Assembly: GCA_017960845.1 (NCBI GenBank)
Contig: JAGCYK010000012.1
Span: forward strand, 1-33,158
From: Clostridia bacterium
GTDB taxonomy: Bacteria > Bacillota > Clostridia > Christensenellales > Pumilibacteraceae
Direction of reading: 5' to 3'
Length of the DNA stretch: 33,158 nt
The notes under the pieces were generated by a model. The model was given only the letters and a program-made list of their open reading frames with translations, was not told the DNA's origin and ran no database searches. Shown piece after piece: positions 2,063 through 19,474 of the stretch (positions are counted from its first letter, which is position 1; each line of letters begins with the position of its first letter). Position numbers and translations under genes: made by a program.

Positions 2063-5000
2063 TTATTTCAAACAATCATTTATTTCCTTTAAAATGTTAA
2101 TAAATATTACGTTTTCCTTTTCTTCGCGTGTTAAAGAGTGCAAGAAAAGATTATTGGCCTTTTCCACGGTTTCTTTAAGTTCGTTAAGCATACCAAGTGC
2201 CTTAAATGAATTAGATTCTGCTAGCAAAACATTCATTTCACATTCGTGGTTGTTAAGTTTGTTCTTATCCTGCATTCCACGGATATATTCTTCCATCTCG
2301 GCTTTAGCCGACAAAGCACCCTCTTTATCGCCGCAAAGCGCAAGATTCTCCATTTTACGGTAAAAAGCTCCTACTGCATCGGGAATAAAGAAAGGCACAT
2401 CACTATCAAAGCAGATTTCGTATGCTTTTATAGCCTTTTGATATAGTACGACTGCTTCTTTGTAATTATTTAAGCGAGAGCTAATAATACCCCGGCATAA
2501 ATATGTAAATGCCTTCAAACGCGGAGCCCTTATCTTGTCAGAGCATTCAGGAAGACGACTTATTACCATATCCAATATTTTGACAACCTCTGAATATCTT
2601 CCACATTCACGGTAAACATTGGACAAACAAACATGCTCGGACAAGTAGTATTCTAAAGAAGCATATGAACTTTTCTCCTCATAAAGCTTGCGAACTATAT
2701 TCATTGAAGTCTCATATAAGTCTAGAGCTTTTTCGTTTTCATTTACCTTAAGTGCATATGTAGCATAATATGTAAGCGCATTGTCGTATTGATACAACTC
2801 TTCATCATTTAACAGCTCATAGTATTTTTTGAATATTTTTATAGCTTTTTCGAAATAAAAAACGCATATACCGAAAACATTGGAGATCATAGCATTTAAT
2901 CCCATTATCGTAAATAGATACGCTATTCTGATTCTGGTTTTATCTGAAAAATCCGATTCGTTTTTTATATAGAATTCATCAATCGTTTGAATTAAGGCAT
3001 TCTCGCGAAGTGCCTCGTCTCTGGTCTTTGCCCAAGTTGCTTTAAACGGAATTTGCAGTAGCAACTTAAAAAGGTCTTTTGCCCGGCTCGTTTCACCTTT
3101 CTTTTCTAGTAAAGCGAAAACACTTTCAGTCAGAGCAAATGTTGAATATTCAACGCCGTCCAAAATGTCATTTGAATTAGCGACAGATTCAATCTGCCCA
3201 ATCATATTTTCTAGATATTCTTCATTTTCTTTTTCAAAATATTTTTTTATTGCCTTCTTTTGTTCTAAATGCGCCAACTCAAAAACCGTTCCATCAAAAG
3301 ATCTTTTTGTGGACAAGAATATTTTTATATTATTAATAAAACCTAGGAAGGCAAAGCAAGGTGCTTCGTTCCCTGACAAATATGCCAGCTCATATATGCT
3401 AAGAGCACGAGAAGAAAGTGCAAGAGGATTTAAAACATTTATGAACTTTTTGTAGTATCTTTCCCCTATTACATTCCTTATATTTTCGAAATATTGGATA
3501 TATATGTTTTCATTCAATTCTAGTACATTTTCCGGTTTATACTTGCTGATAGAATCAATTCCAGATAATCTAACTGTTAGAATTTCTTTTAATAATGTCA
3601 GAAACAAAATATTCTTTTCAGGCAAGTTGTCAAAATATCTTTTTAAATACTCATCTGAAAAAACAAAATCTTTTAACTTTTTCCTAATAACTATTCGATT
3701 AACCTCGCCCATAACCTTTTCGACAAAAAACTTGTACGCAAAATCCTTATATACTGGCATATCTGAGGTCAAAAGAAGCCTTTTACCCTTAAAAGAATGA
3801 AGAATGTTTAATATAAAGGGATTGACTGCATCATTAATTCTTTCCGTTCTTGATGTAACTAAGACTACGACGCCATCGTCAAGCATATCTTCGTCTGGTA
3901 TGAAGTCCGAAATGTTTCGTCCTTTTTTAACTGCTATTTCATCCAATCCGTCAAAGATGAACAAAAGTGTTTTATCTGGATAGTGATACTTTTTAAATGA
4001 ATTAAGAACGGAAGCAAATTCGGTTTTTGGATTATCAGCGTTAACATTTAACTCTTTAAGATTGTTTGCCGCAGTAAATCCCGGACTTACGCGCCGCAAG
4101 ATATCCGAAACGGCAACTGAAAAATCATCAACCCTGCTATTATAAGTGGAATTGATATAAAAAGCTCTCGGAGCAACTCCTTCAATTTCGATTTCATTCA
4201 ATGAAAAAGGATCTAGTGCGCGTATAAATGTACTTTTGCCCATACCAGCTTCCATTTGAAGGAGCAAAAGTTTCTCTCCACTTTGAATCGAATCATTAAG
4301 CCAATTCGTAATAAATTTCGGTTCAAAGTATTTAATCCTATCAAAAATACTTTCGCATAATGCTCTCTCTTCTATGCTGTAACTTTGTGCTTCAACACTA
4401 TGCGAGGTTTCATCAATTAAATCACAAAACAGATTATTAAACTCGGGAATAATAATGCTTTCTTTTTTGCTTCTAAGATACTCGATTATATCAGTCTTGC
4501 TATATTTAGCGATATGCCTATCAAAGAAAAAGATTCCTTCCAAATTTACTTTAAAAAATGGACTTGTTTTATAGACAATCTTTGTAGAATTAATTCTTAA
4601 AAACAAATCTCCGTTTAGTGTGCTGAAGTCAAGATTTGACCCTTCAAGAATATCTCCTTCTTTAGTAATAAACTCTATTTCTGTGAAATACTCCTTTTTG
4701 TTTTGAAGGAATTCAGTTATTGCACTTATATGCGTTGCGACATCTTCATATAGAGATCTGTCGTTCATTAGTTTTAAAGCACCATGAGCGATTGTATCGT
4801 TTCGCCAAAAAACAATATCGCCGTGTTTATTGCTATTCACGAATCCCTTGACCGCTTCAGTCAAGTTTAGAATATTCTTATCAATCTGATTGCAACTGCG
4901 AAGAAGAGCACTTGCTTTAGATAATGCTGCGCGCCAATCACCGAAAGATAGCGGTTTAGACATTAGAAAGCGAAAAAAATCATTAACGCCATCATTTCTC

Positions 5001-5296
5001 AGTGCCGGATTATTGAAAAAGAATGAGGCTGTAATTAGAACCGGAATACGCGTTATAACCTCGTATACATCTTTTACCTGAAACAGAAGTCCATAAATCT
5101 GTTTGTTTTTTATTAAATCCTTGAAAATTGCATATTCATAAGCAATTATAGAGTTATATTCCCTTTCAATAGCACTATCGTAGTACTTATTTCCGTCTAG
5201 TAAAATCTCAGACCAGTCCCTGCCGCAAACAGGACAGCAAAAAACTCCACCCGAAAATGATAACTCTTCTTGGCAATTAGAACATATGATTTCCAT
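2063..5296 (-). CDS. HEPN - STAND NTPase - TPR protein with N-terminal zinc ribbon (putative defence sensor/effector)
   Basis: Not recognised as a named gene. Domains in order: a zinc ribbon at 5-24 (C5xxC8 and C21xxC24); a helical region of about 40-200 with an RN-x4-H motif (R165, N166, H171; context FWRNDTIAHG) typical of HEPN ribonucleases; a beta-rich linker at about 205-300; then a STAND/NACHT-like P-loop NTPase. The NTPase shows EAGMGKST (Walker A, K354), LLFIFDGLDE (Walker B, D449/D452/E453) and TSR (482-484). A winged-helix-like arm follows at about 615-690, then TPR-like helical repeats at about 805-1050. The known logic of STAND proteins is that the C-terminal repeats sense a trigger, the NTPase oligomerises and the N-terminal domain acts. 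RNA cleavage is inferred. It begins 4 bp after the upstream membrane gene, with an AAGGGA site overlapping that gap. No terminator is obvious other than the rdgB hairpin. Confidence 0.8.
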   Translation of the reverse strand: MEIICSNCQEELSFSGGVFCCPVCGRDWSEILLDGNKYYDSAIEREYNSIIAYEYAIFKDLIKNKQIYGLLFQVKDVYEVITRIPVLITASFFFNNPALRNDGVNDFFRFLMSKPLSFGDWRAALSKASALLRSCNQIDKNILNLTEAVKGFVNSNKHGDIVFWRNDTIAHGALKLMNDRSLYEDVATHISAITEFLQNKKEYFTEIEFITKEGDILEGSNLDFSTLNGDLFLRINSTKIVYKTSPFFKVNLEGIFFFDRHIAKYSKTDIIEYLRSKKESIIIPEFNNLFCDLIDETSHSVEAQSYSIEERALCESIFDRIKYFEPKFITNWLNDSIQSGEKLLLLQMEAGMGKSTFIRALDPFSLNEIEIEGVAPRAFYINSTYNSRVDDFSVAVSDILRRVSPGFTAANNLKELNVNADNPKTEFASVLNSFKKYHYPDKTLLFIFDGLDEIAVKKGRNISDFIPDEDMLDDGVVVLVTSRTERINDAVNPFILNILHSFKGKRLLLTSDMPVYKDFAYKFFVEKVMGEVNRIVIRKKLKDFVFSDEYLKRYFDNLPEKNILFLTLLKEILTVRLSGIDSISKYKPENVLELNENIYIQYFENIRNVIGERYYKKFINVLNPLALSSRALSIYELAYLSGNEAPCFAFLGFINNIKIFLSTKRSFDGTVFELAHLEQKKAIKKYFEKENEEYLENMIGQIESVANSNDILDGVEYSTFALTESVFALLEKKGETSRAKDLFKLLLQIPFKATWAKTRDEALRENALIQTIDEFYIKNESDFSDKTRIRIAYLFTIMGLNAMISNVFGICVFYFEKAIKIFKKYYELLNDEELYQYDNALTYYATYALKVNENEKALDLYETSMNIVRKLYEEKSSYASLEYYLSEHVCLSNVYRECGRYSEVVKILDMVISRLPECSDKIRAPRLKAFTYLCRGIISSRLNNYKEAVVLYQKAIKAYEICFDSDVPFFIPDAVGAFYRKMENLALCGDKEGALSAKAEMEEYIRGMQDKNKLNNHECEMNVLLAESNSFKALGMLNELKETVEKANNLFLHSLTREEKENVIFINILKEINDCLK

Positions 5297-5300
5297 CTTT

Positions 5301-6710
5301 TTATCCCTTCAATTGCTTTTGAGACCAGCGCTCAAGCTTTTTCATTTCCTTATATTTCAAAACCATTTGTATTCCTACACCGATTGCATACACCAAAGTA
5401 ACTGCTATGGGGATAATCATAAACAATAGATTTTCATGGATTGAGATATTAAATACCTTTTCAACAATATCCCACATGGATTTAAATATGGTTATTGAGC
5501 CTATAATCTGCGCAATCAAAAAAACATAAAACTGCCATTTTACTCGCCTATAATTCTCAAAAACTTCAAGGCGTTTTTTTGATTCTTCAGTGATTCGAAT
5601 AAGAGTTTGCGTTTTTTCGGTTAATTCTTTTTCATAAATGTCAACCTGCTGCATCGTCAGGATGTAATCGTAATATTTATTTATATGCGAAACTGAAGAG
5701 GGTCTATAAAACTTGCATCTTATTTCATATAACTGGGATTTCAAAATAGCATCTGACAAAGCCTCGTTTTGCAATCGTAGTTGTTCTTCATCTAAAATAG
5801 CAGACTTAGGATTTAATTTATTGATTTGATGCAAGCGTTTCAAAAGGGTAAATTTTCTATTCAGTATTAGGAGAAATAAATAAAAGTATCCCATTCGTGC
5901 ATTGCTAAGAAATTGTGTTTGAAAAAATTTATCCGTAACCTCATCACCTACTAGCCATGCTACATTTGTCATTGTTGTATCGGAACCTACCCATTTACTG
6001 TTTTCGAATAATGAACAGATATCCGTTTTTTCAGTTTTATATGATGACTTATCCCCACTAGCTAATTTGTGGAGGTCGTTTTCTAATTCATCATATTCTT
6101 TATCCAGTAATATGGCCGAATAAGCTATAGGCTTTAAATCATAGAATGAAACGTTTTCATCTATATCAAAACCTGTGACATTATCAAATAAACAAAGGAT
6201 ATTTTCTATGACTTCCTTTAAATGCACTTCTGCAATATCATCTTTACCTGTTTGAACATTTAAAACATTTTTATCTGATTTTAATTCCGAAAGAAAATAA
6301 TTAGCATTAACAAAATCGGACATATCGCCATCCACATATTCCCAGTCAAAATCAAGAAAACCAATATGAGTTTCAAATAAATAAAGGTTAATACTGCGAA
6401 GTTTCACCTTTAGTTTTTTACCAGCCTGGTTTCCTCTGGTAGAAAGCTCCATAAGTGAATTAGCACCTCTAAGGCCGAACATAGCACGTGCTCCATCACT
6501 CATACTTAATGCTCTCATAATGCTATTGCTGTCTGAAAGATTACATTTATCGTTTATGTAATCAAAGAGATGATTGGTTGAAAAGCTAAATTCGTTCCAT
6601 ATTTTGATATCTTTTCCTTCAGCTTTCTTTTGGAAAAAAGCCTCTCTATTTTCTAAATAATAAGAGAATGGTACTATGATTTTACTAAACTGCTTTATGA
6701 TCTTTGACAT
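5301..6710 (-). CDS. Membrane protein with soluble N-terminus, coiled coil and two C-terminal TM helices (CorA-like topology)
   Basis: No family is recognised with certainty. About 390 soluble residues, rich in charged and aromatic residues, lead into a helical/coiled-coil stretch at about 305-390. Two hydrophobic helices follow at about 394-411 and 428-451, and a short basic tail ends the protein. This is the topology of CorA-type channels (large cytosolic domain, long helix, two C-terminal TMs), but the GMN selectivity motif after TM1 is missing, so magnesium transport is not supported. It overlaps no gene but ends 4 bp before the HEPN-STAND gene, so the two are almost surely co-translated and functionally linked. 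A role as membrane effector or partner of the STAND protein is inference. A GAAAGGA site precedes the ATG. A TATAAT box in the 48-bp gap upstream may give it its own promoter. Confidence 0.75.
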   Translation of the reverse strand: MSKIIKQFSKIIVPFSYYLENREAFFQKKAEGKDIKIWNEFSFSTNHLFDYINDKCNLSDSNSIMRALSMSDGARAMFGLRGANSLMELSTRGNQAGKKLKVKLRSINLYLFETHIGFLDFDWEYVDGDMSDFVNANYFLSELKSDKNVLNVQTGKDDIAEVHLKEVIENILCLFDNVTGFDIDENVSFYDLKPIAYSAILLDKEYDELENDLHKLASGDKSSYKTEKTDICSLFENSKWVGSDTTMTNVAWLVGDEVTDKFFQTQFLSNARMGYFYLFLLILNRKFTLLKRLHQINKLNPKSAILDEEQLRLQNEALSDAILKSQLYEIRCKFYRPSSVSHINKYYDYILTMQQVDIYEKELTEKTQTLIRITEESKKRLEVFENYRRVKWQFYVFLIAQIIGSITIFKSMWDIVEKVFNISIHENLLFMIIPIAVTLVYAIGVGIQMVLKYKEMKKLERWSQKQLKG

Positions 6711-8631: not shown

Positions 8632-9045
8632 TTACTTAATCACCTTCCAATAACCTTTAGTACCACCTACTCTATTTATAACTCCTATTTCTTTTAATCT
8701 AGCTAATGATCTTTGAATTGTTCTTGAAGATTTATTAATTTTAATTCCTATTTTCTCGGCAGATATATATGGATCATTTTTTATTAATTCTATTATTATT
8801 TTTTCCACATCAGTAATAGTGCCATTTACGACATGGCGTTTAAAAATAAATGTGAATCCTTCTTGCGATATAACATAATCTAATGCAACATCATTATCAT
8901 TGCATTCTTTGAATACGGGGTTTATTATCCCCATATTAAAAGGGCTATATGCTTTGATTATATGTTTCCGCCTAAATTGAGTCAATATGTTTCCGCTAAC
9001 CTTTTTATTAAAAACAAGTAAATAACACGATTGACACGAAAGCAC
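8632..9045 (-). pseudogene. 3' fragment of a Schlafen/AlbA_2-type winged-helix regulator, fused to IS-end sequence
   Basis: The open frame gives 137 aa. Residues from about 31 on look like the C-terminus of the AlbA_2/Schlafen DNA-binding regulators (COG2865-like). There is a stretch with the FTFIFKR strand near 64-70, then a winged helix at about 75-137 (ISAEKIGIKINKSSRTIQR, then a GYWKV wing). The N-terminal AlbA_2 domain, about 300 aa, is absent. Residues of about 17-29 are a translation of the 25-bp-spaced repeats at 8961-8996. The start lies beyond that repeat, so the break is at the IS-like end. It is probably non-functional, though a free DNA-binding fragment cannot be excluded. Confidence 0.65.
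8961..8996. mobile_element. Solitary IS21-like terminal repeat
   Basis: The 11-bp unit TATGTTTCCGC occurs at 8961-8971 and again at 8986-8996, a period of 25 bp. IS21-family ends carry several such transposase-binding repeats of the GGCGGAAACATA type on the opposite strand; this comparison is from memory. No transposase (istA/istB) and no second end are in the window, so this is a remnant that truncates the regulator gene. Confidence 0.5.
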
Positions 9046-9330: not shown

Positions 9331-10506
9331 CTATAGTGTAAAGCCTATTTCTTTGAGCTTACGGCAGTTATATTCAATAATTGAAATAAGATTCATTATT
9401 ATCTTTTTTGCTTCCACTTTATCCGGAATACTTCTAGAAAGATCAAGCGCACTATTTTCCGAATGAGTATAATAATTTCTCGTTTTGAAATATTCTATAT
9501 ATAAAGACACCATTATTTCCGCATAAACAACAGAACCTATTCTTTTTTGATAGCTTCTTTTCAGAATATAATTTCCTTCCTTATCCTTATCATAAGCCTG
9601 CCCTATCATTTTTACGGAAATGTTTTTGGCTTTTTGAAGATCGAATATGAACTTCTCAAGGGCCCGGTATGGTCCAATTAACAAAAATGAATAGTCAGAA
9701 AGGCCTTGAACCTTTTCGATGTCAGATAGCCCATTATACAGGTCTATAAGCGAAGCTTCACTGAGGTACGCCATTCCAACGGGAAAATATTTCTTCATCA
9801 GCTTTCTATCGTACTTCTCGGTAAACTGCGATACAAGACTATCAAAGAGAGAACTCTTTTTGCCTTGCACCGATAGCGTTCCGTTTACCGCGAAAATAAT
9901 GGAAGCTTTTTCTTTTGCTGCGTTCGAAACAGAATAAACAGTTTCTCCTTGATTACTACTAGATGAGCGGACCTTACAGCCACTATCTTTAAGAACTTTA
10001 ACTGCCCAGTCAACGCGTGTTTGCTTAACTTCTTGAAGAACGAATGGTTTTGCCACTTCATGTTTGCTACTTTTTGCCGGTTTCTTAGTGCTATCTTTTT
10101 CGGCGCTAAGTTCATCTTTAGCAATCAGCTTTTTTGCCTTCTTTCCTTTCCTTTTGGTTCGACTCGGCTTTTTTTCTTTTATTGCGCCTTCCTTTTTAGG
10201 ATTCTCTTCCTTTTTTTCGGTTAGTTTTAAATTGAGCTCATTTAGTTTTGGATAGACACTAATAATCCTGTCTATTACTTCACGTTTAGCGTCCGCAGTA
10301 ATGATTGCTGCTTTAGTGTCATAAACAACACTTAAGTGGCTTCCACTACCATCTATGAAATGATAGCGGTCTAAGTGGCTTTTGTCTTTAGGTGGGACGT
10401 GACTTTTAACCGAAAAACCACTGCTTATAATGACAGCAAAAAAGTCCTCTGCTAAAAGAGGCTCACATTTTTCTGCCCTAAGTCTTGTTGTAAGTTTATC
10501 CGGCAT
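9331..10506 (-). CDS. RnlA-like HEPN ribonuclease candidate (two TBP-like domains plus HEPN)
   Basis: The 391-aa protein has an N-terminal alpha/beta domain (about 15-90), a Lys-rich linker (about 95-155), a second similar alpha/beta domain (about 160-232), and a helical C-terminal domain (about 240-391). This repeats the layout of E. coli RnlA (RNase LS toxin): NTD, repeated domain and a HEPN Dmd-binding domain. The key residues fit what is recalled for RnlA (R255, E258, R318, H323). Here R281 and E284 sit in YRALEKF, and R343 and H348 in RNYYTHSE, giving the same 3- and 5-residue spacings and nearly the same gap between pairs. It starts 7 bp after the DUF1667 gene, so it is likely co-transcribed with the redox operon. 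No RnlB-like antitoxin is visible. RNase activity is inferred; a housekeeping RNA-processing role is possible. Confidence 0.65.
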   Translation of the reverse strand: MPDKLTTRLRAEKCEPLLAEDFFAVIISSGFSVKSHVPPKDKSHLDRYHFIDGSGSHLSVVYDTKAAIITADAKREVIDRIISVYPKLNELNLKLTEKKEENPKKEGAIKEKKPSRTKRKGKKAKKLIAKDELSAEKDSTKKPAKSSKHEVAKPFVLQEVKQTRVDWAVKVLKDSGCKVRSSSSNQGETVYSVSNAAKEKASIIFAVNGTLSVQGKKSSLFDSLVSQFTEKYDRKLMKKYFPVGMAYLSEASLIDLYNGLSDIEKVQGLSDYSFLLIGPYRALEKFIFDLQKAKNISVKMIGQAYDKDKEGNYILKRSYQKRIGSVVYAEIMVSLYIEYFKTRNYYTHSENSALDLSRSIPDKVEAKKIIMNLISIIEYNCRKLKEIGFTL

Positions 10507-10513
10507 TTTTCTT

Positions 10514-10870
10514 CTACCCTATACTAATGTCAGATGTAACCATTAGCCTTATACCGAGAGTATCCTCGCAAACGATGTCTCCTTCTTTTAAAGGAGCTTT
10601 TAGCTTAACTCTCTTAATCTTCTTTGCAATTTCAAGTATACTGCTAACCGGCATCGGTTGGGTAGTCTTTACGGCCACTATTTTTTTTGATGATCCTTCA
10701 ATTCGCATATTAAACGTTGCATTTCGCACCGGATTTAGAAGTTCGCTCACTCCGTATTCTTTTCCACGAGCGCACGAATTTCCACTTACCTGTATCGCGC
10801 CGTCAATTTCTTCAGCGTTTAATTGACATCCACGGGGGCAAACTATGCATGTAAATTCCATCTTTTTCAT
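10514..10870 (-). CDS. DUF1667 family protein of the GlpA-like redox operon
   Basis: Small (118-aa) cysteine-containing protein that nearly always accompanies the two FAD enzymes encoded upstream. The N-terminus has CIVCPRGC (C8, C11, C15) and a fourth cysteine at C33 (SCARG), a pattern that suggests a metal or Fe-S site. The C-terminal half, including ITKIKR-like basic and AxLKEGDIV segments, is typical of the family. The ATG overlaps the preceding stop (TAATG) and has a strong GGGAGG site, which favours this start over the internal methionine at residue 4. Its biochemical role is not established. Electron transfer for the flavoenzymes is an inference from context. Confidence 0.88.
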   Translation of the reverse strand: MKKMEFTCIVCPRGCQLNAEEIDGAIQVSGNSCARGKEYGVSELLNPVRNATFNMRIEGSSKKIVAVKTTQPMPVSSILEIAKKIKRVKLKAPLKEGDIVCEDTLGIRLMVTSDISIG

Positions 10871-12099
10871 TATGCCTCCCCGCTTGCGTCTATTATTATG
10901 TTATCGTAGCTAATTCCGCTTAAAGCTGGAAGTTCAAGAGAAATAGTCTCATTTGGAGCAAACGCAAGTCTTTTTATGCTCTTTATAATCGTCCCGTCAG
11001 GCCTAGCAGCGAAAAGCATCGCATTCTTTATTTTCTTTTTTACCCTTATATATATAACTGACGGACTACCTTCTTTAATGAACTGCGGAACTACGGAGGC
11101 AATACTATTGCCACAGTTTACCTTAACGCTGTTCTCGCTTCTAAGTTTACCAAGCGCAAAAAGGGCTGCATTCTTACCGGCATTTTCAGATTCATATGTC
11201 ACATTGTCAACAAGGTCATGAACGTGAAGTGCATTTCCGCATGCAAAGTAACCACTGACTTCGCACTGGCCTAAGTTATCCGTAAAAGGCCCCTTTGTTC
11301 TTCTATCTAATGTTAAAAAGCCGAATAGATCGTTTTCAGGAATAAGCCCAACGGAAAGAATGAGTGTGTCGCAAGGAATAGTCTGCTCCGTGCCCTTAAT
11401 AGGACGGATATTTTCATCTACCTGCGCCGTCACTACTCCTTCTACGCGCTTTTGCCCGAGCACTTCCACTACTGTAGTAGATAGCCTTAAAGGAATGTTA
11501 AAATCCTTCAAGCACTGGGCGATGTTTCTATTTAATCCTCCAGGAGTAGGCATTGCTTCTAAAACGGCTTCAACTTTTGCACCTTCTAGAGTGAACCTTC
11601 TTGCCATTATAAGGCCGATGTCCCCAGAGCCTAGAATAACTATTTTCTTTCCTACGCATAGACCGTCTATGTTTATAAGCCGCTGCGCGGTTCCGGCAGT
11701 GAATATCCCGGCCGGATGACCACCGGCTATATTCAGCGTGCCAGCAGGGCGCTCGCGGCAGCCCGTAGCAATTACAACGGCCCCCGCGCTTATGCTCTCG
11801 TAACCGCTTTCCGTAGCTATCTCGCAGCACCTATTTTTATCTGCGCAGATTACGCTCCCCTTAATAATGCTAATATTTTTTTCGGCAGCGACTTTCCTAA
11901 CAAACCTAGAAGCGTACTCAGGGCCTGTTAGTTCTTCTCCGAAATATCTGAGACCAAAGCCTGAATGAATGCATTGGTTTAAGATGCCCCCGAGATTATC
12001 TCTTTCGGCAATTATAACCTTTGCACCCTCTTTTGCTGCAGATAAAGCGGCCGATAGACCCGCCGGACCTCCGCCTATAACAAGCACATCAGTCTTCAT
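10870..12099 (-). CDS. NAD(FAD)-dependent oxidoreductase, GlpB-like partner
   Basis: Two-dinucleotide-fold flavoprotein of 409 aa that likely passes electrons between the GlpA-like dehydrogenase and NAD or another carrier. The N-terminus reads DVLVIGGGPAGLSAA (FAD-binding GxGxxG). A second GxGxxG lies in KIVILGSGDIGLIMARR for NAD(P). ATG-type segments VVIATGCRERP and, near the C-terminus, GYFACGNALHVHDLV complete the fold. The start at 12099 is chosen because it overlaps the preceding gene's end, has GGAGG six bases upstream, and opens directly into the first beta strand. The 17 extra codons upstream belong to the end of the previous gene in another frame. Confidence 0.92.
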   Translation of the reverse strand: MKTDVLVIGGGPAGLSAALSAAKEGAKVIIAERDNLGGILNQCIHSGFGLRYFGEELTGPEYASRFVRKVAAEKNISIIKGSVICADKNRCCEIATESGYESISAGAVVIATGCRERPAGTLNIAGGHPAGIFTAGTAQRLINIDGLCVGKKIVILGSGDIGLIMARRFTLEGAKVEAVLEAMPTPGGLNRNIAQCLKDFNIPLRLSTTVVEVLGQKRVEGVVTAQVDENIRPIKGTEQTIPCDTLILSVGLIPENDLFGFLTLDRRTKGPFTDNLGQCEVSGYFACGNALHVHDLVDNVTYESENAGKNAALFALGKLRSENSVKVNCGNSIASVVPQFIKEGSPSVIYIRVKKKIKNAMLFAARPDGTIIKSIKRLAFAPNETISLELPALSGISYDNIIIDASGEA

Positions 12100-13501
12100 A
12101 CATCGCCTCCGGTTTAAACAAGTAGTTGCTACCTCTTTCCTTTCTGACAATGCTTTCCGGGCTAACGTCTAGTTCCCTGGACAATATCTCTATTATTCTC
12201 GGAAGACAAAAACCGCCCTGACAGCGTCCCATACCGGTTCTAAGCCTCTTTTTTATTCCGTCTACATTTCTAGCCCCGCGCCTAATAGCCTCTATTATCT
12301 CAGCTTCTGAAACAACCTCGCATCTACATACGATATTGCCGTACTTTTTGTTTTTTTCAATTGCTAGCTTTTTTCCTTCTGAGGTTAAGTGAGAAAACTT
12401 AACTATGCCCGTTCTAATTGGGTTAAAGTCAGTACGCCTATTTAGGTTAAAGCTTTCCGCAACATACTTTGCAATTGCAGGCGCTGAGCTTAGTCCGGGC
12501 GAGCATATCCCTATAACGTTATATAGATACTTAGATGCTTTGCTTTTACCAATTACAAAATCTCCGCTTTTGCTAAGCGTTCTTATCCCGGCAAATGACG
12601 TTATTTTCTTATCTAAAGAAATGCTGCTTACTGACTTTTTAACAGCCTCTAAAAGCTCATCTTCTGCGCTACGTCTAATTCGAGAGCTCGGCTCGTCCAT
12701 ATTTATTGCCGTAGGCCCGACAAACCAGTTGTCTGAAGTAGTCGGGCAAATAAGCACTCCCTTGCCTTTCTCGCTTGGAGTTTGAAAAATGGGCATAGCT
12801 ACAGGCGAAGGATGATCAAATAGTATATATTCGCCCTTTCTATATGTTAATTTCGCTTCTTCGCCGAATAGTTTTGATACACTTCCGCTGCCTACGCCAG
12901 CTGCATTAATAAAGCACTTCGCTTCAACTGTCTTTCCGTCAGCGCTTGTTAGTAGCCCACTTTCCCCATTTTCCTTAAACTCACTTGCAAAGAAATCGAA
13001 AATGAATTTTACGCCGTTTGCTTCTGCGTTTTCCTTAAAAGCATAAGTTAGCTCAAACGGATTTACTATTCCAGAGTTTTCTACGTAAAGTGCCTGTTTA
13101 ACTTTTTCGCTTACACCCGGGAATTTTTCAATCACCTCGCTTCTTGAAATTATTCGAAGCGATTTTACTCCGTTTTGTTTTCCGCGGCAAAGAAGCACTT
13201 CTAGCTGGGCGCTTTCCTCATCACTAGTTGATATTACCATTGACCCTGTTTTTTTGTATGAAAAATCAAGGTCTCTAGATAGTTCATCGAACAAACTAGC
13301 ACCCTCGACATTAAATTTTGCCATTAGCGAGCCTACCGGGGCATCAAAACCACCATGGACAATGCCACTATTCGCACCGCTTGTCCCTGCGCAAACATCC
13401 ATTTCCTTTTCTACAAGTACTACGCTAGATTCATATTTAGATAACTCTCTAGCTATTGCGCAGCCTATAACTCCGCCGCCTATAACGCAAAAATCATACA
13501 T
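12089..13501 (-). CDS. GlpA-like FAD-dependent glycerol-3-phosphate dehydrogenase family protein with BFD-like [2Fe-2S] domain
   Basis: First gene of the redox operon. The 470-aa flavoprotein opens with FCVIGGGVIGCAIAREL (FAD fold) and has the DAO-family core SGANSGIVHGGF. Its C-terminus carries a BFD-type domain with CRCEV and GRCQGGFC cysteines, as in anaerobic GlpA. With the next two genes it forms the GlpA-like/oxidoreductase/DUF1667 set seen in Clostridia and Thermotogae. Oxidation of glycerol-3-phosphate or a related alpha-hydroxy substrate is the expected role, but no glpK or glpF is in view. There is no ribosome binding site: TATAAT ends 6 bases before the ATG, so translation is probably leaderless. 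The start is fixed because residue 3 already begins the FAD strand. Confidence 0.9.
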   Translation of the reverse strand: MYDFCVIGGGVIGCAIARELSKYESSVVLVEKEMDVCAGTSGANSGIVHGGFDAPVGSLMAKFNVEGASLFDELSRDLDFSYKKTGSMVISTSDEESAQLEVLLCRGKQNGVKSLRIISRSEVIEKFPGVSEKVKQALYVENSGIVNPFELTYAFKENAEANGVKFIFDFFASEFKENGESGLLTSADGKTVEAKCFINAAGVGSGSVSKLFGEEAKLTYRKGEYILFDHPSPVAMPIFQTPSEKGKGVLICPTTSDNWFVGPTAINMDEPSSRIRRSAEDELLEAVKKSVSSISLDKKITSFAGIRTLSKSGDFVIGKSKASKYLYNVIGICSPGLSSAPAIAKYVAESFNLNRRTDFNPIRTGIVKFSHLTSEGKKLAIEKNKKYGNIVCRCEVVSEAEIIEAIRRGARNVDGIKKRLRTGMGRCQGGFCLPRIIEILSRELDVSPESIVRKERGSNYLFKPEAMYED

Positions 13502-13620: not shown

Positions 13621-16600
13621 TTAAGACTTTCTCTTTCTGAATCTGATGAAGTAAATCACTGCGCCAGCAATTACGATTACGCCTACGATAATAAGCACGA
13701 TTGCAAGTGTCTGGATAGCTTCACTAGATACATTTGAAGAAGATGTTGTAACAGTGATGTAGTACTTAATAGTAGTTGTGTTACCAACGTTATCTGTTAC
13801 TTTGTATACTACTGTATATGTTCCGGCAAGAGTTAGTTCATAAGATGTTCCGTTGTTCTTACTTGCGTTGTCAGTAACTTTAGAGTCTGATACTTCTTCG
13901 TTCTCAGGAGTAAGAAGAGTCTTGGAATATGTATATCCTGTTGAATCTTCATCATCTACCTGAATAATAGCAAAGTCGAATAGATCATTAACTGTTGCTT
14001 CAGGTGTGCCGTCTGCAGATCTCTTAAGTGAAGAATTGATGTATCCAATATCTACAGTGAATTCAGGAGGAGTGATGTCTCCGCAAGCAATTGTGTAAGA
14101 TGTTGAACTCTCATTGTCATTAATGATTGCAGTATAAGAAACAGTGTAGTTACCGTCTTTTGTTGCTCTGAATGAGAACTCATTCGGGCCTAATGTATTG
14201 TCTCTTGAACTATCTATTACTTCAACGGCGTTTCCATCTTTATCTGTTACTTTGCAAGTAATAGCAGTTGACTTGCCGTTAGCACTTGATGCGCTTACTG
14301 CAGGAAGTCTAACTACATCGTTCTTTGCTGCATAAGTAGGCATTACGCCAAGAGTCTGGAATACGGGCTTTTCTTTGTCATCTACTCTTGAGCTGTAACT
14401 TCCGGATTTTGCATAAACGTTCAGTACATTGTAATTAGCATCATACTGAGCAATATTTCCGGTTGTTGAATACTCGAATACGTAATCAACGAAGCTGAAT
14501 GAGCAGCACTGAAGAGCGGTAAATTCTGTTCCCATGAGTTGCATTCTTCCACCTGTTATAGCGCGAAGTACGCCGGCTTCAGCAACGCCGCTGTAGTAGT
14601 AATCATTAGGAAGTGAATATGTCTCGCCGTAGTTAAGTTCGTCTGAAAGAATTGATGATACTATAACGCTACCTGCTCCGGTATAAATATCGATATCAAC
14701 GAAAGATACGAGTGTTGCGCTGTCTCCGGATACATTGAATCCACGTGTAACGATCATATATTTTCCGGAAGCGCTTACCTTGAAGCGGATGTTGTCAACG
14801 TACAAACGATGTGTTCCGCCAGGTCTATTGTCGCTATATGTTTCGAAAGAAACTGTGCTGAGCGGAGCCTTGTCTACAGCTCTACCATTCTTGTCATAAA
14901 CCTGCTTAACATAGAGCTCGAATCCTGTATAATTTCTATTCTCGAATGAACCGAAATCAATATAGAATGAACCGAATGTGTAATATCCGTTTGCATCTGT
15001 AACTGCAGGTGTCTCACCTACATATGTATAAACGGGAGTTACATCATAGGTTGCAGCAACTGTTCCGTCAATTATCTGGATTTCTTCAACAAAGAATTTG
15101 AAGTTTCCAACAGAGTCTATTGCTCTGATTGCAAGATATGCGGACTTTGTTACGTCAACTGATATTTTGTGCTCGTCGCCGTATGCATCTTCGATAGTTG
15201 CGATGTACTCGCCATTATCTATTTTAAGACGAATGTCGTTGTAACCGAGCATACTGTCAAGTTCAACGATGTCATCACCATATCCAAGAACTGCTGCCTC
15301 TTCGAAAGCATCGAATGTGCCATCCATAGCAATGGTGTTGTTGAAGAGAATGTAATACTCAACAGCAAGACGTGTATCGTTTGCATCAGTTGCAGTTACG
15401 TTTGTAATTGTTTCAATGCTCTCATAGTTTCTGAAAGCAATGTATTTAGGTGCAGTAAAGTCTACGCTAGGAAGATCAGTATCTCTATATGAATCCTGAA
15501 GAATAAGTTCAAATGATCTGCTTGAAGATGTTCCCTTATCATCTTTGAGACGGTATGTTACTGTATATGTTCCAAGATAGTCGGTTCTATCAGCAAGAAA
15601 GTCGAAATCAAAAAATCCTTTTGAACCATTTGCGGGGTCGTAGTAAACAAGAGATATTGCGTTTCCTGTGATTCCAGGACCGGTTATAGCACCGGTTGTG
15701 GGGTTAACGGTATAGCCTGTTCCTTCCCAGTATTTGAAGAAATAATAAGAGGTTTCGGGCTCTCCGCGAAGTTTTCCTGTAGAAGACTTTGAACTATCCG
15801 AAGCAGATGTAGCAAGAATGTTTTCAAAAGAAAGAATCTGCTTGGAGTTGTTGTCTGTTAATGTGAATGCACACTTGATATTTTCAGTTGCTGTAGCGTT
15901 GTCGAAAGCCTCAGGGATAGGAAAACGAATTGCCTTGCTGTCAATCTCGATTGCATCATCAAATTGTCCGTTTCCGTTTGAATCATCGTAATCAAGTCTC
16001 TTAACCGAACTCATGCCCCACCTTGTAGGAATAAGGCTATCTTCAAGTTTGTCAATAACCGGAGCTGTTGTATCTGATACTTTAATAGTAAAGGACTGTT
16101 CCTTTGTCTTGTTTGCATCGCTGTCAAGAACTTTTCCGGTGTTATCCATAGCCGCATAAGATACTTTGTAAATACCTTCTTCGGTAGGAATGAAATCCAT
16201 AAATTTGTCATTGTCAAATACAGCTTTAACTGCATTTGCTATATTTGTCGTATAAACATAATCGCCATTTGCATCTACTTTGTAAGAACCATCTGCATTT
16301 GCTTCATAGTAAAGAATCTTTCCGCTGTCGTCTTTAGCGGCAAATCCTGTCTTCTTGTCGATTACTACATCAGGAACGTCCGTTTCAGCTGCTCCCTCTC
16401 CGAATGCATGAGTTACTTTGATAGTAACATTTACGCGCTCGTCGTAGTCATCTGTAAGAGTTGCTTTAGGAAGAGTATTCTTAACATTTACTGAAGAAGT
16501 AGAGCTTACTCCAGAGATACTCATTGTAGGAGCCTTTGCATCATTGAAAGTATTCTGAACCTGAACTGTGAACTGCTCAGAAAGAATCTTTCTTCCGCCA

Positions 16601-17268
16601 TAAAGCTCCGCATAGTATGTTACATAATAAACACCCTGCGCGCCGGTTGAGTAAAGCTTTTTGCCAGATGCAAGTTCTGCAGCGCTGTAAGTAACTGTAG
16701 TTCCATCAGGTGCGGTTACTTTGCAGTTAACCGTGCTAAGTCTTCCGGGATCATCTTTAAGTCCGGAAGGAAGATATTTCTCTTCGTCTTCGTCGTAATA
16801 GTAAAGCTTAGCTCCAGGAAGTGTAGGCGCAGTGTTGCTGCTCTTCCAAACTGAAGGAAGCCCAGCTCCGTATCCGTCTACGATAAGATAATACTCATAT
16901 TCCATATATGATTCCACATTATATGAATAAACTGCGAAATCATTATTCTCGTCTGCATAATATGTGACTACATAGATACCAACCTGTGCTGCAGTGATAT
17001 CTTCATCTGCTGCAAGCACTTGCTTATCTAATACCAAACTTCCGTCGGGGGCTTCTACGGAAACTTTATAGCTTCCAGCCTTTCCTACGGTAAATGTTTT
17101 TCCATAGATAACGTAATTGGTAACATTTGTATTTACCAATGCTAGCTCGTCAGGCGCTGCGGCCGAAGCCGTGAGTCTAACGGCGGTGAAGGCACCACTA
17201 AAAACAAAAGCAAGAATTAAAAGTAATGATGCCAAAACAGCCAAAGGCTTTTTAACCTTATAATACAT
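13621..17268 (-). CDS. Large secreted, membrane-anchored Ig-like-repeat surface protein
   Basis: The 1215-aa cell-surface protein has a signal peptide at about 1-37: basic MYYKVKKP, a long hydrophobic core and an ASAAA cleavage site. The body is built of many beta-rich modules of about 90-110 residues. Several end with motifs such as YTVVYKVTDNVGN or YKVSYAAMDNTGK, typical of bacterial Ig-like/DUF5011-type domains. A single TM helix at about 1185-1208 and a basic RFRKRKS tail anchor it to the membrane; no LPXTG motif is present. No enzymatic domain is recognised, so adhesion or a structural role is inferred. It is transcribed alone from a near-consensus promoter, with AAGGAG before the ATG. 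Confidence 0.82.
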   Translation of the reverse strand: MYYKVKKPLAVLASLLLILAFVFSGAFTAVRLTASAAAPDELALVNTNVTNYVIYGKTFTVGKAGSYKVSVEAPDGSLVLDKQVLAADEDITAAQVGIYVVTYYADENNDFAVYSYNVESYMEYEYYLIVDGYGAGLPSVWKSSNTAPTLPGAKLYYYDEDEEKYLPSGLKDDPGRLSTVNCKVTAPDGTTVTYSAAELASGKKLYSTGAQGVYYVTYYAELYGGRKILSEQFTVQVQNTFNDAKAPTMSISGVSSTSSVNVKNTLPKATLTDDYDERVNVTIKVTHAFGEGAAETDVPDVVIDKKTGFAAKDDSGKILYYEANADGSYKVDANGDYVYTTNIANAVKAVFDNDKFMDFIPTEEGIYKVSYAAMDNTGKVLDSDANKTKEQSFTIKVSDTTAPVIDKLEDSLIPTRWGMSSVKRLDYDDSNGNGQFDDAIEIDSKAIRFPIPEAFDNATATENIKCAFTLTDNNSKQILSFENILATSASDSSKSSTGKLRGEPETSYYFFKYWEGTGYTVNPTTGAITGPGITGNAISLVYYDPANGSKGFFDFDFLADRTDYLGTYTVTYRLKDDKGTSSSRSFELILQDSYRDTDLPSVDFTAPKYIAFRNYESIETITNVTATDANDTRLAVEYYILFNNTIAMDGTFDAFEEAAVLGYGDDIVELDSMLGYNDIRLKIDNGEYIATIEDAYGDEHKISVDVTKSAYLAIRAIDSVGNFKFFVEEIQIIDGTVAATYDVTPVYTYVGETPAVTDANGYYTFGSFYIDFGSFENRNYTGFELYVKQVYDKNGRAVDKAPLSTVSFETYSDNRPGGTHRLYVDNIRFKVSASGKYMIVTRGFNVSGDSATLVSFVDIDIYTGAGSVIVSSILSDELNYGETYSLPNDYYYSGVAEAGVLRAITGGRMQLMGTEFTALQCCSFSFVDYVFEYSTTGNIAQYDANYNVLNVYAKSGSYSSRVDDKEKPVFQTLGVMPTYAAKNDVVRLPAVSASSANGKSTAITCKVTDKDGNAVEVIDSSRDNTLGPNEFSFRATKDGNYTVSYTAIINDNESSTSYTIACGDITPPEFTVDIGYINSSLKRSADGTPEATVNDLFDFAIIQVDDEDSTGYTYSKTLLTPENEEVSDSKVTDNASKNNGTSYELTLAGTYTVVYKVTDNVGNTTTIKYYITVTTSSSNVSSEAIQTLAIVLIIVGVIVIAGAVIYFIRFRKRKS

Positions 17269-17408: not shown

Positions 17409-18689
17409 TTAGTTTTCAAGAACCCTTATCATGCTTATTACTCTATTGCTCTTATCAAGTTCCGAAAACTCAGAAATTGCTCGTCTTATTTCGCTTTCTT
17501 TTGCTGCGTGAGTGAGGAATCTAATGAAAGCAATGCCATCTTTTCCTTTTTGAACCACGCTCTCAATGCTGACATTATTCGATGCGAAAATGCCTGCTAT
17601 GGATGATAAAACCCCAGGGATGTCTTTTACAGAAACCGAAATATAGAAGTTACTGGTCAAGTCTCCTGAAATATTAACTGAGCCGTCAAGTTTACCATTA
17701 TTTTCAAAGGTGGTGTAAAGAGGACTAGTGCGCTTAGAAGCATAAACTATATCACTAACGATTGCACTTCCCGTCGGACGAGCGCCGGCGCCTCTTCCGT
17801 AAAACATAAGTTCGTCTACGAAATCACCTTTTACAAATACTGCATTGAATGAACCGCCAACTGAAGCGAGCGGGTGTGAAACAGGAACGAAAGCCGGATG
17901 AACTCTCACTTCAACGTCAGTACCGTTCTTCTTTCCAATTGCAAGAAGTTTAATGACATAACCAAGTTCTTTTCCTGCAGCTATGTCCTCTACAGTAATT
18001 CCGGTTATTCCCTCTCTATAAACTGAAGTAATGGGAATACATGTATTGAAAGCCAAAGATGACAGAATGGAGAGTGTATAAGAAGCATCGAAGCCGTCAA
18101 CATCTGCAGTAGGATTGAATTCAGCAAAGCCAAGATTTTGAGCTTCTTTTAAAGCTGCAGCATATGACATATTCTCTTCTGTCATTTTCGTAAGGATATA
18201 GTTCGTCGTTCCGTTGATTATACCTATAATTTTTTCTATGTTGTTTGCCTGCAAGCCCTCTTGAAGTGCCCTTATAATAGGAACTCCGCCCACGCAAGAC
18301 GCTTCAAAATATAGTCCAGCCTTACCTTTTTTAGCAGCCTGCTCTAAAGAAGGCCAGTGTTTGGCGATCAGCTCTTTGTTTGCAGTGACTATGCTCTTTC
18401 CCGAAAGCAATACTTTTTCTATAAAAGTCTTTGCAGGCTCTACTCCGCCCATAGTTTCCACAACAACGGATATCTCGTCGTCGCTGATGATATCTTCTAT
18501 GCTGCTTGCAAAAGCACTCTCCGGAATTCCAAACCTTTTTATGCGAGAAATGTCTTTATCCAGGACTTTTTTGACTTTAAAATCTATTCCCTGCGTTTTA
18601 AGCAAAAGGTCGTGGTTTTCGGTAAGAATTTCGTACGTTCCTCCGCCTACAGTTCCTATTCCCATAATTGCTACGTTAACTGTTTTCAT
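17409..18689 (-). CDS. hom: Homoserine dehydrogenase
   Basis: Reduces aspartate semialdehyde to homoserine with NAD(P)H, on the branch to threonine and methionine. The N-terminal Rossmann motif GIGTVGGGTYEIL is at about 11-23. VTANKELIAKH near 100 holds the family lysine. The catalytic-domain stretch EASCVGGVPIIRAL and the homoserine-binding segment GFAEFNPTADVDGFDA follow. A C-terminal ACT domain (about 345-426) suggests allosteric feedback control. The length of 426 aa is normal. The ATG overlaps the coaX stop (ATGA), so the gene is translationally coupled at the end of the ECF transporter-coaX operon. No terminator is evident before the surface-protein promoter. Confidence 0.95.
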   Translation of the reverse strand: MKTVNVAIMGIGTVGGGTYEILTENHDLLLKTQGIDFKVKKVLDKDISRIKRFGIPESAFASSIEDIISDDEISVVVETMGGVEPAKTFIEKVLLSGKSIVTANKELIAKHWPSLEQAAKKGKAGLYFEASCVGGVPIIRALQEGLQANNIEKIIGIINGTTNYILTKMTEENMSYAAALKEAQNLGFAEFNPTADVDGFDASYTLSILSSLAFNTCIPITSVYREGITGITVEDIAAGKELGYVIKLLAIGKKNGTDVEVRVHPAFVPVSHPLASVGGSFNAVFVKGDFVDELMFYGRGAGARPTGSAIVSDIVYASKRTSPLYTTFENNGKLDGSVNISGDLTSNFYISVSVKDIPGVLSSIAGIFASNNVSIESVVQKGKDGIAFIRFLTHAAKESEIRRAISEFSELDKSNRVISMIRVLEN

Positions 18690-19474
18690 GCCTGTTTCTC
18701 CATGTTTTTAGCATTCATATTATATATTATACTGAGCCCCTTTAGTGTGAGCCGTCTGTCTAGAATATCTATTACGTCGCTTTCCTTTTTTACTATCTCG
18801 GCAATTCCGCCGGTCGCGATTACTTTTACTTCAGAAAAACCGGTTTCCTCTTTTATGAGGCTGACTATTCTCTCAATCATTCCTATATAACCTTGAATTA
18901 GTCCTGCCTGCATATTCGTGATTGTGCTCTTGCATACTACGCTATCAGGCATATTGAGTTCTATTTTAGGAAGTTTTGCTGCCGAGTTAGAAAGTGCTTC
19001 AGCTGCATTTTTAAGACCATATCCTATGCAGCCGCCAAGAAAGTCACCTCTTTCATTTATAACATTAAAAGTTGTCGCGGTTCCGCAGTCTACCACAATG
19101 CATGGCCCGCCGTACATATTATACGCAGCCACCGAATTGACAATTCTATCCGAACCAACCTCTTTGGGGTTATCGTACTTTATATTCAGCCCTGTTTTTA
19201 CGCCCGGGCCGATTATTATTGGCTTAATTCCGAGGAAATAGTCGCAGGCGTGCTCTAAAGTATAGTTTAGATTAGGGTTAACAGAAGACATAATCGCTCC
19301 CGTTATTTCCTCTTTTTTTATTCCTTTCGTTGCAAGCTGCGAGATAATATCAAGGCCATATTCGTCCCCGGTTCTTCCCTGCATTGTCGAAAGACGGAGG
19401 GAATGAACAAGATTGTTCTTTTCAAATACGCCTATCTTTATATTAGTGTTTCCTATATCTATTGCTAGTAACAT
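18686..19474 (-). CDS. coaX: Type III pantothenate kinase
   Basis: Phosphorylates pantothenate, the first step of CoA synthesis. The 262-aa ASKHA-fold protein has the N-terminal phosphate loop DIGNTNIKIGVFE at 5-17, the central GSDRIVNSVAAY stretch, VVDCGTATTFNVI with the catalytic aspartate, and ATGGIAE near residue 226. These are the hallmarks of CoaX rather than CoaA. A GGAGG site lies before the ATG. It stands between an ECF S component and hom, and the upstream neighbour is likely its substrate importer. CoaE, the last step of CoA synthesis, is also in the window at 28231. Confidence 0.95.
   Translation of the reverse strand: MLLAIDIGNTNIKIGVFEKNNLVHSLRLSTMQGRTGDEYGLDIISQLATKGIKKEEITGAIMSSVNPNLNYTLEHACDYFLGIKPIIIGPGVKTGLNIKYDNPKEVGSDRIVNSVAAYNMYGGPCIVVDCGTATTFNVINERGDFLGGCIGYGLKNAAEALSNSAAKLPKIELNMPDSVVCKSTITNMQAGLIQGYIGMIERIVSLIKEETGFSEVKVIATGGIAEIVKKESDVIDILDRRLTLKGLSIIYNMNAKNMEKQA

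Follow-up and report, generated by a model that had tools for sequence, protein, structure and literature searches.

A solitary RnlA-type HEPN protein, apparently domesticated, at a fixed chromosomal locus in the family Pumilibacteraceae

The locus raises the question of what an RnlA-like gene is for when it stands behind redox genes and without its usual antitoxin. An initial annotation of the 33,158-nucleotide stretch of Pumilibacteraceae DNA analysed here (the window) had described such a gene at the end of a redox operon and had offered three readings of it: an unpaired toxin, a defence gene riding a metabolic promoter, or a domesticated RNA-processing enzyme. The open reading frame is real, begins with ATG and encodes 391 amino acids. 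It is separated from the upstream DUF1667 gene by the 7 bases that had been annotated (10507–10513). The gene and its protein are designated RNL below.

9331..10506, minus strand: RNL, solitary RnlA/LsoA-type HEPN ribonuclease, 391 aa (Pfam, profile, AlphaFold2 and Foldseek)

A Pfam search with the single sequence revealed PF15935 (RnlA_toxin) at residues 155–229 (E=9e-5), followed by PF19034 (RnlA-toxin_DBD) at residues 267–348 (E=1e-4); both matches were slightly below the 27-bit cut-off and stood in the correct RnlA domain order. When the family alignment was added, PF19034 was matched by all 41 of 41 family members, with a best E-value of 4e-11. In the PDB, the RNL family profile hit LsoA, the plasmid toxin of E. 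coli O157, with E=1.4e-13 and, less strongly, E. coli RnlA; the profile comparison of the HEPN part with LsoA gave E=2e-11. LsoA was thus the best PDB sequence match of RNL and has the same HEPN active site; unlike RNL, it is plasmid-borne and has LsoB adjoining. PADLOC and NCBIfam provided no name for the RNL protein, which is uninformative because E. coli RnlA was likewise unmatched.

The AlphaFold2 model of RNL had a mean pLDDT of 86 and comprised two beta-alpha-beta4-alpha domains (residues 1–100 and 153–232), a disordered basic linker and a helical C-terminal domain.

10207..10506, minus strand: N-terminal alpha/beta domain, residues 1–100 (AlphaFold2; full-length RnlA alignments 4i8o/6y2q)
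10051..10206, minus strand: disordered basic linker, residues 101–152 (pLDDT; family charge and length)
9811..10050, minus strand: second alpha/beta domain, similar to the RnlA NRD, residues 153–232 (PF15935 at 155–229; 7aex; 4py5)
9331..9810, minus strand: HEPN ribonuclease domain (the RnlA “DBD”), residues 233–391 plus stop (PF19034, LsoA profile, structure)

RnlA and LsoA accounted for each of the top ten Foldseek matches in the PDB (E 6e-12 to 1.5e-8), so that the structural resemblance expected from the annotation was found. The NRD-HEPN part of RNL aligned with that of RnlA (7aex) with Z 17.6 over 229 residues (VIA), and the alignment with full-length RnlA (4i8o/6y2q) reached Z of about 16 across 293–298 residues (VIA); the domains differ in their relative placement, which makes the global rmsd to full-length RnlA large. 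A resemblance to the N-terminal domain of RNase H3 (4py5) was seen for the second alpha/beta domain as well, with Z 7.2, a value that is weak if taken alone. This resemblance agrees with the excerpt of the HEPN survey used here, in which RNase LS proteins carry a TBP-like domain resembling the one in RNase HIII (PMC3710099). RNL is similar in this respect to the RNase LS proteins of Bacillota in the same excerpt, for example that of Geobacillus, where the HEPN domain follows the TBP-like domain (PMC3710099).

In the window's RNL, pLDDT fell below 50 at linker residues 102–111 and 115–143, and the linker had a net charge of +12 (54 residues scored). A net positive linker was found in 63 of 66 members, with a length ranging from about 50 to 283 aa; the basic character of the linker that had been noted as Lys-rich is therefore real, and its length is variable. 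In genus g18 (e.g., L051, 7352–9397) the RNL proteins reach 600–681 aa through long Pro-rich basic linkers, and one of them contained an AT-hook motif at a sub-threshold score.

The four residues that the initial annotation had picked out as the active site, R281, E284, R343 and H348, are the correct ones, since they align one-to-one with R255, E258, R318 and H323 of E. coli K-12 RnlA (b2630). Their conservation was counted over 66 Pumilibacteraceae RNL sequences.

9664..9666, minus strand: R281 (RnlA R255), 62 R and 4 K of 66
9655..9657, minus strand: E284 (RnlA E258), 66/66
9478..9480, minus strand: R343 (RnlA R318), start of the Rx4H motif, 66/66
9463..9465, minus strand: H348 (RnlA H323), end of the Rx4H motif, 66/66

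Variation at these four positions was thus confined to lysine in place of arginine at position 281. The titles of PDB entries indicate that R255A and R318A mutants of RnlA have been solved, which marks R255 and R318 as sites of mutation; all four residues matter for catalysis in RnlA. Taken together, RNL has each of the RNase LS protein-family features examined, namely the HEPN domain, the active-site set and the repeated N-terminal alpha/beta domains, and it is almost certainly an RnlA-family HEPN protein, as first annotated. It shares with E. coli K-12 RnlA (RNase LS), the toxin of the RnlAB pair, the order of three domains, the HEPN fold and the one-to-one R/E/R/H set, and endoribonuclease activity can be predicted from the conserved active site. 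Unlike RnlA, RNL has a long basic linker and invariant residues of its own (K299, Q303, Y319, Y379 and N380). I301, G302, G311, K316, E330 and K383 are invariant as well, and most of these extra positions are absent from RnlA where compared; a partner may contact a surface made by them.

The lack of a visible antitoxin was borne out by a search of family genomes. RnlA of E. coli K-12 lies in the prophage CP4-57 with rnlB behind it, and the excerpt of the HEPN survey lists the RNase LS family in an operon with RnlB (PMC3710099), whereas RNL is fixed on the chromosome and has no RnlB. No match to RnlB (PF15933) was above the cut-off in 45 family genomes (that of the window and 44 further ones), although the same search recovered the RnlB of G074, a genome from another family, as a control. 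Weak matches within the family (E 0.009–0.07, below the cut-off, in long ORFs) were taken as chance. The gap between RNL and the downstream pyrG is usually shorter than 80 bp and that between RNL and its usual upstream neighbor c1 mostly 30–400 bp; with such short gaps, no shared RnlB-sized gene adjoins RNL. As regards RNA antitoxins, no Rfam family reached the gathering threshold in the window or in any of six related loci, and this candidate was set aside for these seven loci.

In E. coli, RNase HI associates with the NRD of RnlA and activates RnlA, rnlB could not be deleted in the wild type, and RnlA without RnlB is harmful (PMC5308261). As control of the E. coli protein depends on RnlB, RNL must be controlled otherwise. 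The dependence of E. coli RnlA on both RnlB and RNase HI leaves room for RNL being the toxin of a toxin-antitoxin system in which the antitoxin has escaped recognition, be it a protein that is diverged or unlinked, a small RNA, or a recruited host protein such as RNase H. RNA-regulated HEPN systems do exist, AbiF being an example (PMC12373285). However, the PF15933 search was negative with a working control, no conserved neighboring gene or Rfam RNA was found beside RNL, where the gaps are short and the neighbors variable, and an unlinked antitoxin would be unusual where the toxin is inherited with one locus. A hidden antitoxin is therefore regarded as unlikely.

The distribution of RNL was examined in three samples. 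Among 151 genomes around the window, a plain protein search found RNL in 65 of 74 Pumilibacteraceae genomes (42 of the 43 that were at least 90% complete) and in none of 77 genomes of other families. A profile search of the order sample (347 genomes) detected RNL or RnlA in 27 of 28 family genomes and in 1 of 319 others (G074), and the class sample (391 genomes) gave three matches, G000, G074 and G642. The only two RnlA genes outside the family in the order and class samples, those of G074 and G642, both adjoin rnlB. These two (L191, 5730–7139, and L210, 182–1711, respectively) are ordinary rnlA-rnlB pairs from other families of the class. Named relatives with RNL are Pumilibacter muris, P. 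intestinalis, Anaerocaecibacter muris and “Candidatus Protoclostridium”; in the NCBI taxonomy, Pumilibacter belongs to Pumilibacteraceae, Clostridia. These names suggest that the window's GTDB family corresponds to Pumilibacteraceae. In G073 (L057, 2265–3775) RNL is apparently split into ORFs of 122 and 377 aa, and a second copy lies on contig L058; this genome has a listed contamination of 7%, and each copy may therefore stem from a different organism.

No RNL match was found in phages, viral contigs or PHROGs, and the plasmid search gave one weak RnlA match; RNL as a present-day mobile-element or phage gene was rejected on these grounds. RnlA/LsoA-like and RnlB/LsoB-like genes were each frequent on plasmids, with 93 and 75 records, respectively, mostly small E. 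coli LsoA-LsoB plasmids. Thus, RNL lacks two features of the RnlAB type II toxin-antitoxin system: an adjacent RnlB/LsoB-type antitoxin, and mobility, since RNL is near-fixed at one locus and not distributed in the mobile, patchy manner expected of RnlAB. Family-wide fixation of an RnlA-type gene without RnlB is a feature not described in the excerpt of the HEPN survey (PMC3710099).

Comparison of the loci demonstrated a common gene order in the family: c6, coaX, hom, the exported Ig-like protein gene c1, RNL and, in most genera, pyrG. In part of genus g17, RNL is followed by murB-PHP-whiA-dnaE instead of pyrG.

10514..13501, minus strand: GlpA-like / Pyr_redox_2 / DUF1667 genes directly upstream of RNL, probably incidental neighbors (window's genus only)
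13621..17268, minus strand: large exported Ig-like protein c1, the usual upstream neighbor of RNL (family synteny)
17409..19474, minus strand: hom (homoserine dehydrogenase) and coaX (type III pantothenate kinase), the anchor of the locus (synteny)

The c1 protein has Ig-like repeats and a C-terminal membrane segment, and its gene adjoins hom/coaX both in the family and in the sister family f19; no Pfam family was above the cut-off in it. The spacing of 7 bases, and the same gene order in several members of the genus, could be taken to mean that RNL is a partner of the redox genes, for example a redox-controlled ribonuclease. Against this, the window's genus is the only one in which the GlpA/GlpB/DUF1667 block separates c1 from RNL, while in dozens of family genomes RNL is not preceded by these genes. 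In f19, moreover, the block lies behind c1, and RNL was not found there. The block is therefore likely to be ancestral, with its proximity to RNL being incidental. A partnership with the redox genes is largely refuted by this synteny comparison and was rejected as highly improbable. The readings of RNL as a stray unpaired toxin and as a defence gene riding a metabolic promoter also fit poorly, as the gene is fixed at one housekeeping locus across the family and the redox genes are in front of it only in this one genus.

The HEPN domain of RNL is under purifying selection. Its median dN/dS was 0.14 (126 pairs with dS below 1.5), and its median identity was 0.56–0.59, compared with 0.55 for pyrG (CTP synthase), 0.58 for hom and 0.62 for coaX over the same genome pairs. 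The Spearman correlation of the HEPN identities was 0.63 with those of pyrG, 0.72 with hom and 0.36 with coaX. The median identity of the N-terminal domain within the family was about 0.25.

The gene is not retained everywhere. In g17, RNL lies between what appear by eye to be its own promoter and terminators, and in G049, a g17 genome sister to the c1-RNL-murB loci, a terminator is all that separates c1 from murB, RNL having been lost cleanly. This loss indicates that RNL can be dispensed with. The genera g3, g6 and g7 include genomes with c1 and without RNL. In the c1 tree the RNL-bearing genomes group together with g3, g6 and g7 outside, the support of the decisive node being weak (0.52), a topology compatible with a single gain of RNL after these genera split off.

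The evolutionary pattern bears on whether RNL serves against phages. RnlA and LsoA are anti-T4 ribonucleases (PMC5308261; also the excerpt of PMC3710099), and in E. coli the decay of RnlB after T4 infection frees RnlA (PMC5308261). By analogy, RNL could be a solitary abortive-infection ribonuclease, held inactive by its N-terminal domains until a phage product or host shut-off released it to cut phage and host mRNA, in parallel with the action of RnlA against T4 but without RnlB. A fast-evolving N-terminal half and linker set against a constant catalytic half would suit such a role, as would the loss of RNL in G049 and the proximity of the window's copy to a possible defence pair at 2063–6710. 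However, RNL is near-fixed, mostly single-copy and confined to one housekeeping locus, its HEPN domain evolves at a housekeeping rate, and no association with defence genes was seen at the other family loci. Defence genes are typically gained and lost. We consider this reading possible but rather doubtful.

Among the three readings initially offered, a domesticated RNA-processing enzyme fits best as the putative function. RNL is apparently a solitary, vertically inherited, domesticated relative of RnlA: a gene that is nearly family-wide in these gut bacteria, highly conserved and without a recognisable antitoxin suggests conversion to a regular, self-controlled cell component. With moderate confidence we favor the view that RNL is an intrinsically controlled ribonuclease that cuts the cell's own RNA, rather than one in anti-phage use. 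Several observations count against domestication, namely the loss in G049, the c1 loci of g3, g6 and g7 without RNL, and the rapid N-terminal evolution (about 25% identity), a pattern that a sensor engaged in an arms race with phages would show as well. The harm done by E. coli RnlA without RnlB (PMC5308261) counts against it as well.

Under the domesticated reading, the gene would have been acquired by the family ancestor or an early branch, behind the c1 gene or the glp-like block and without rnlB, and would have been kept since then as a cell component. RnlA alternates between two HEPN dimers, one resting and one active. Two HEPN domains of RNL may pair as in RnlA, such that R343 and H348 of the Rx4H motif, together with R281 and E284, would make up a site close to the dimer interface that cuts RNA independently of metal; RNA or a partner may be bound by the basic linker and the two N-terminal alpha/beta domains. 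The protein would most likely be restrained from within, by low expression, an inactive resting dimer, or N-terminal domains gating the HEPN pair; our best guess is intrinsic control by HEPN dimer switching. RNL would then be used for regulated cleavage of the cell's own RNA with no protein antitoxin.

RNases Y and J were above the cut-off in 41 of 41 genomes. RNase III was matched in 39 of these, but neither in the incomplete genome of the window nor in G033. Since these enzymes are present, RNL is no stand-in for them, and replacement of a standard ribonuclease was rejected. In its fullest form, which we put forward more tentatively, the proposal is that an RnlA-type toxin was captured once, free of its antitoxin, and is now a near-core, self-regulated ribonuclease shaping the cell's own RNA across the family besides RNases Y, J and III. 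If true, this would clearly exemplify a toxin ribonuclease preserved, together with its active site, at a housekeeping pace despite the loss of its antitoxin. RNL makes the question of how RnlA can be safe without RnlB testable, and both cultured isolates (Pumilibacter and Anaerocaecibacter) and one natural clean-loss lineage exist for comparison.

Two further features were observed downstream of RNL in the window. A GTG-start gene at 8632–9045 (minus strand), lying between RNL and an ABC transporter pair, encodes a winged-HTH protein of 137 aa with an uncharacterised N-terminal half; it did not cluster with genes of at least 3 other loci. In the region downstream of RNL that holds pyrG in most relatives, the window has a gene pair at 2063–6710 (minus strand). 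One gene encodes a 1077-aa protein with a zinc-ribbon-like N-terminus, a NACHT-like NTPase and TPRs, and 4 bases separate it from the other, which encodes a protein of 469 aa that CorA-like entries of PADLOC match weakly (E 1e-4). The two may form an NTPase/membrane-protein defence pair.
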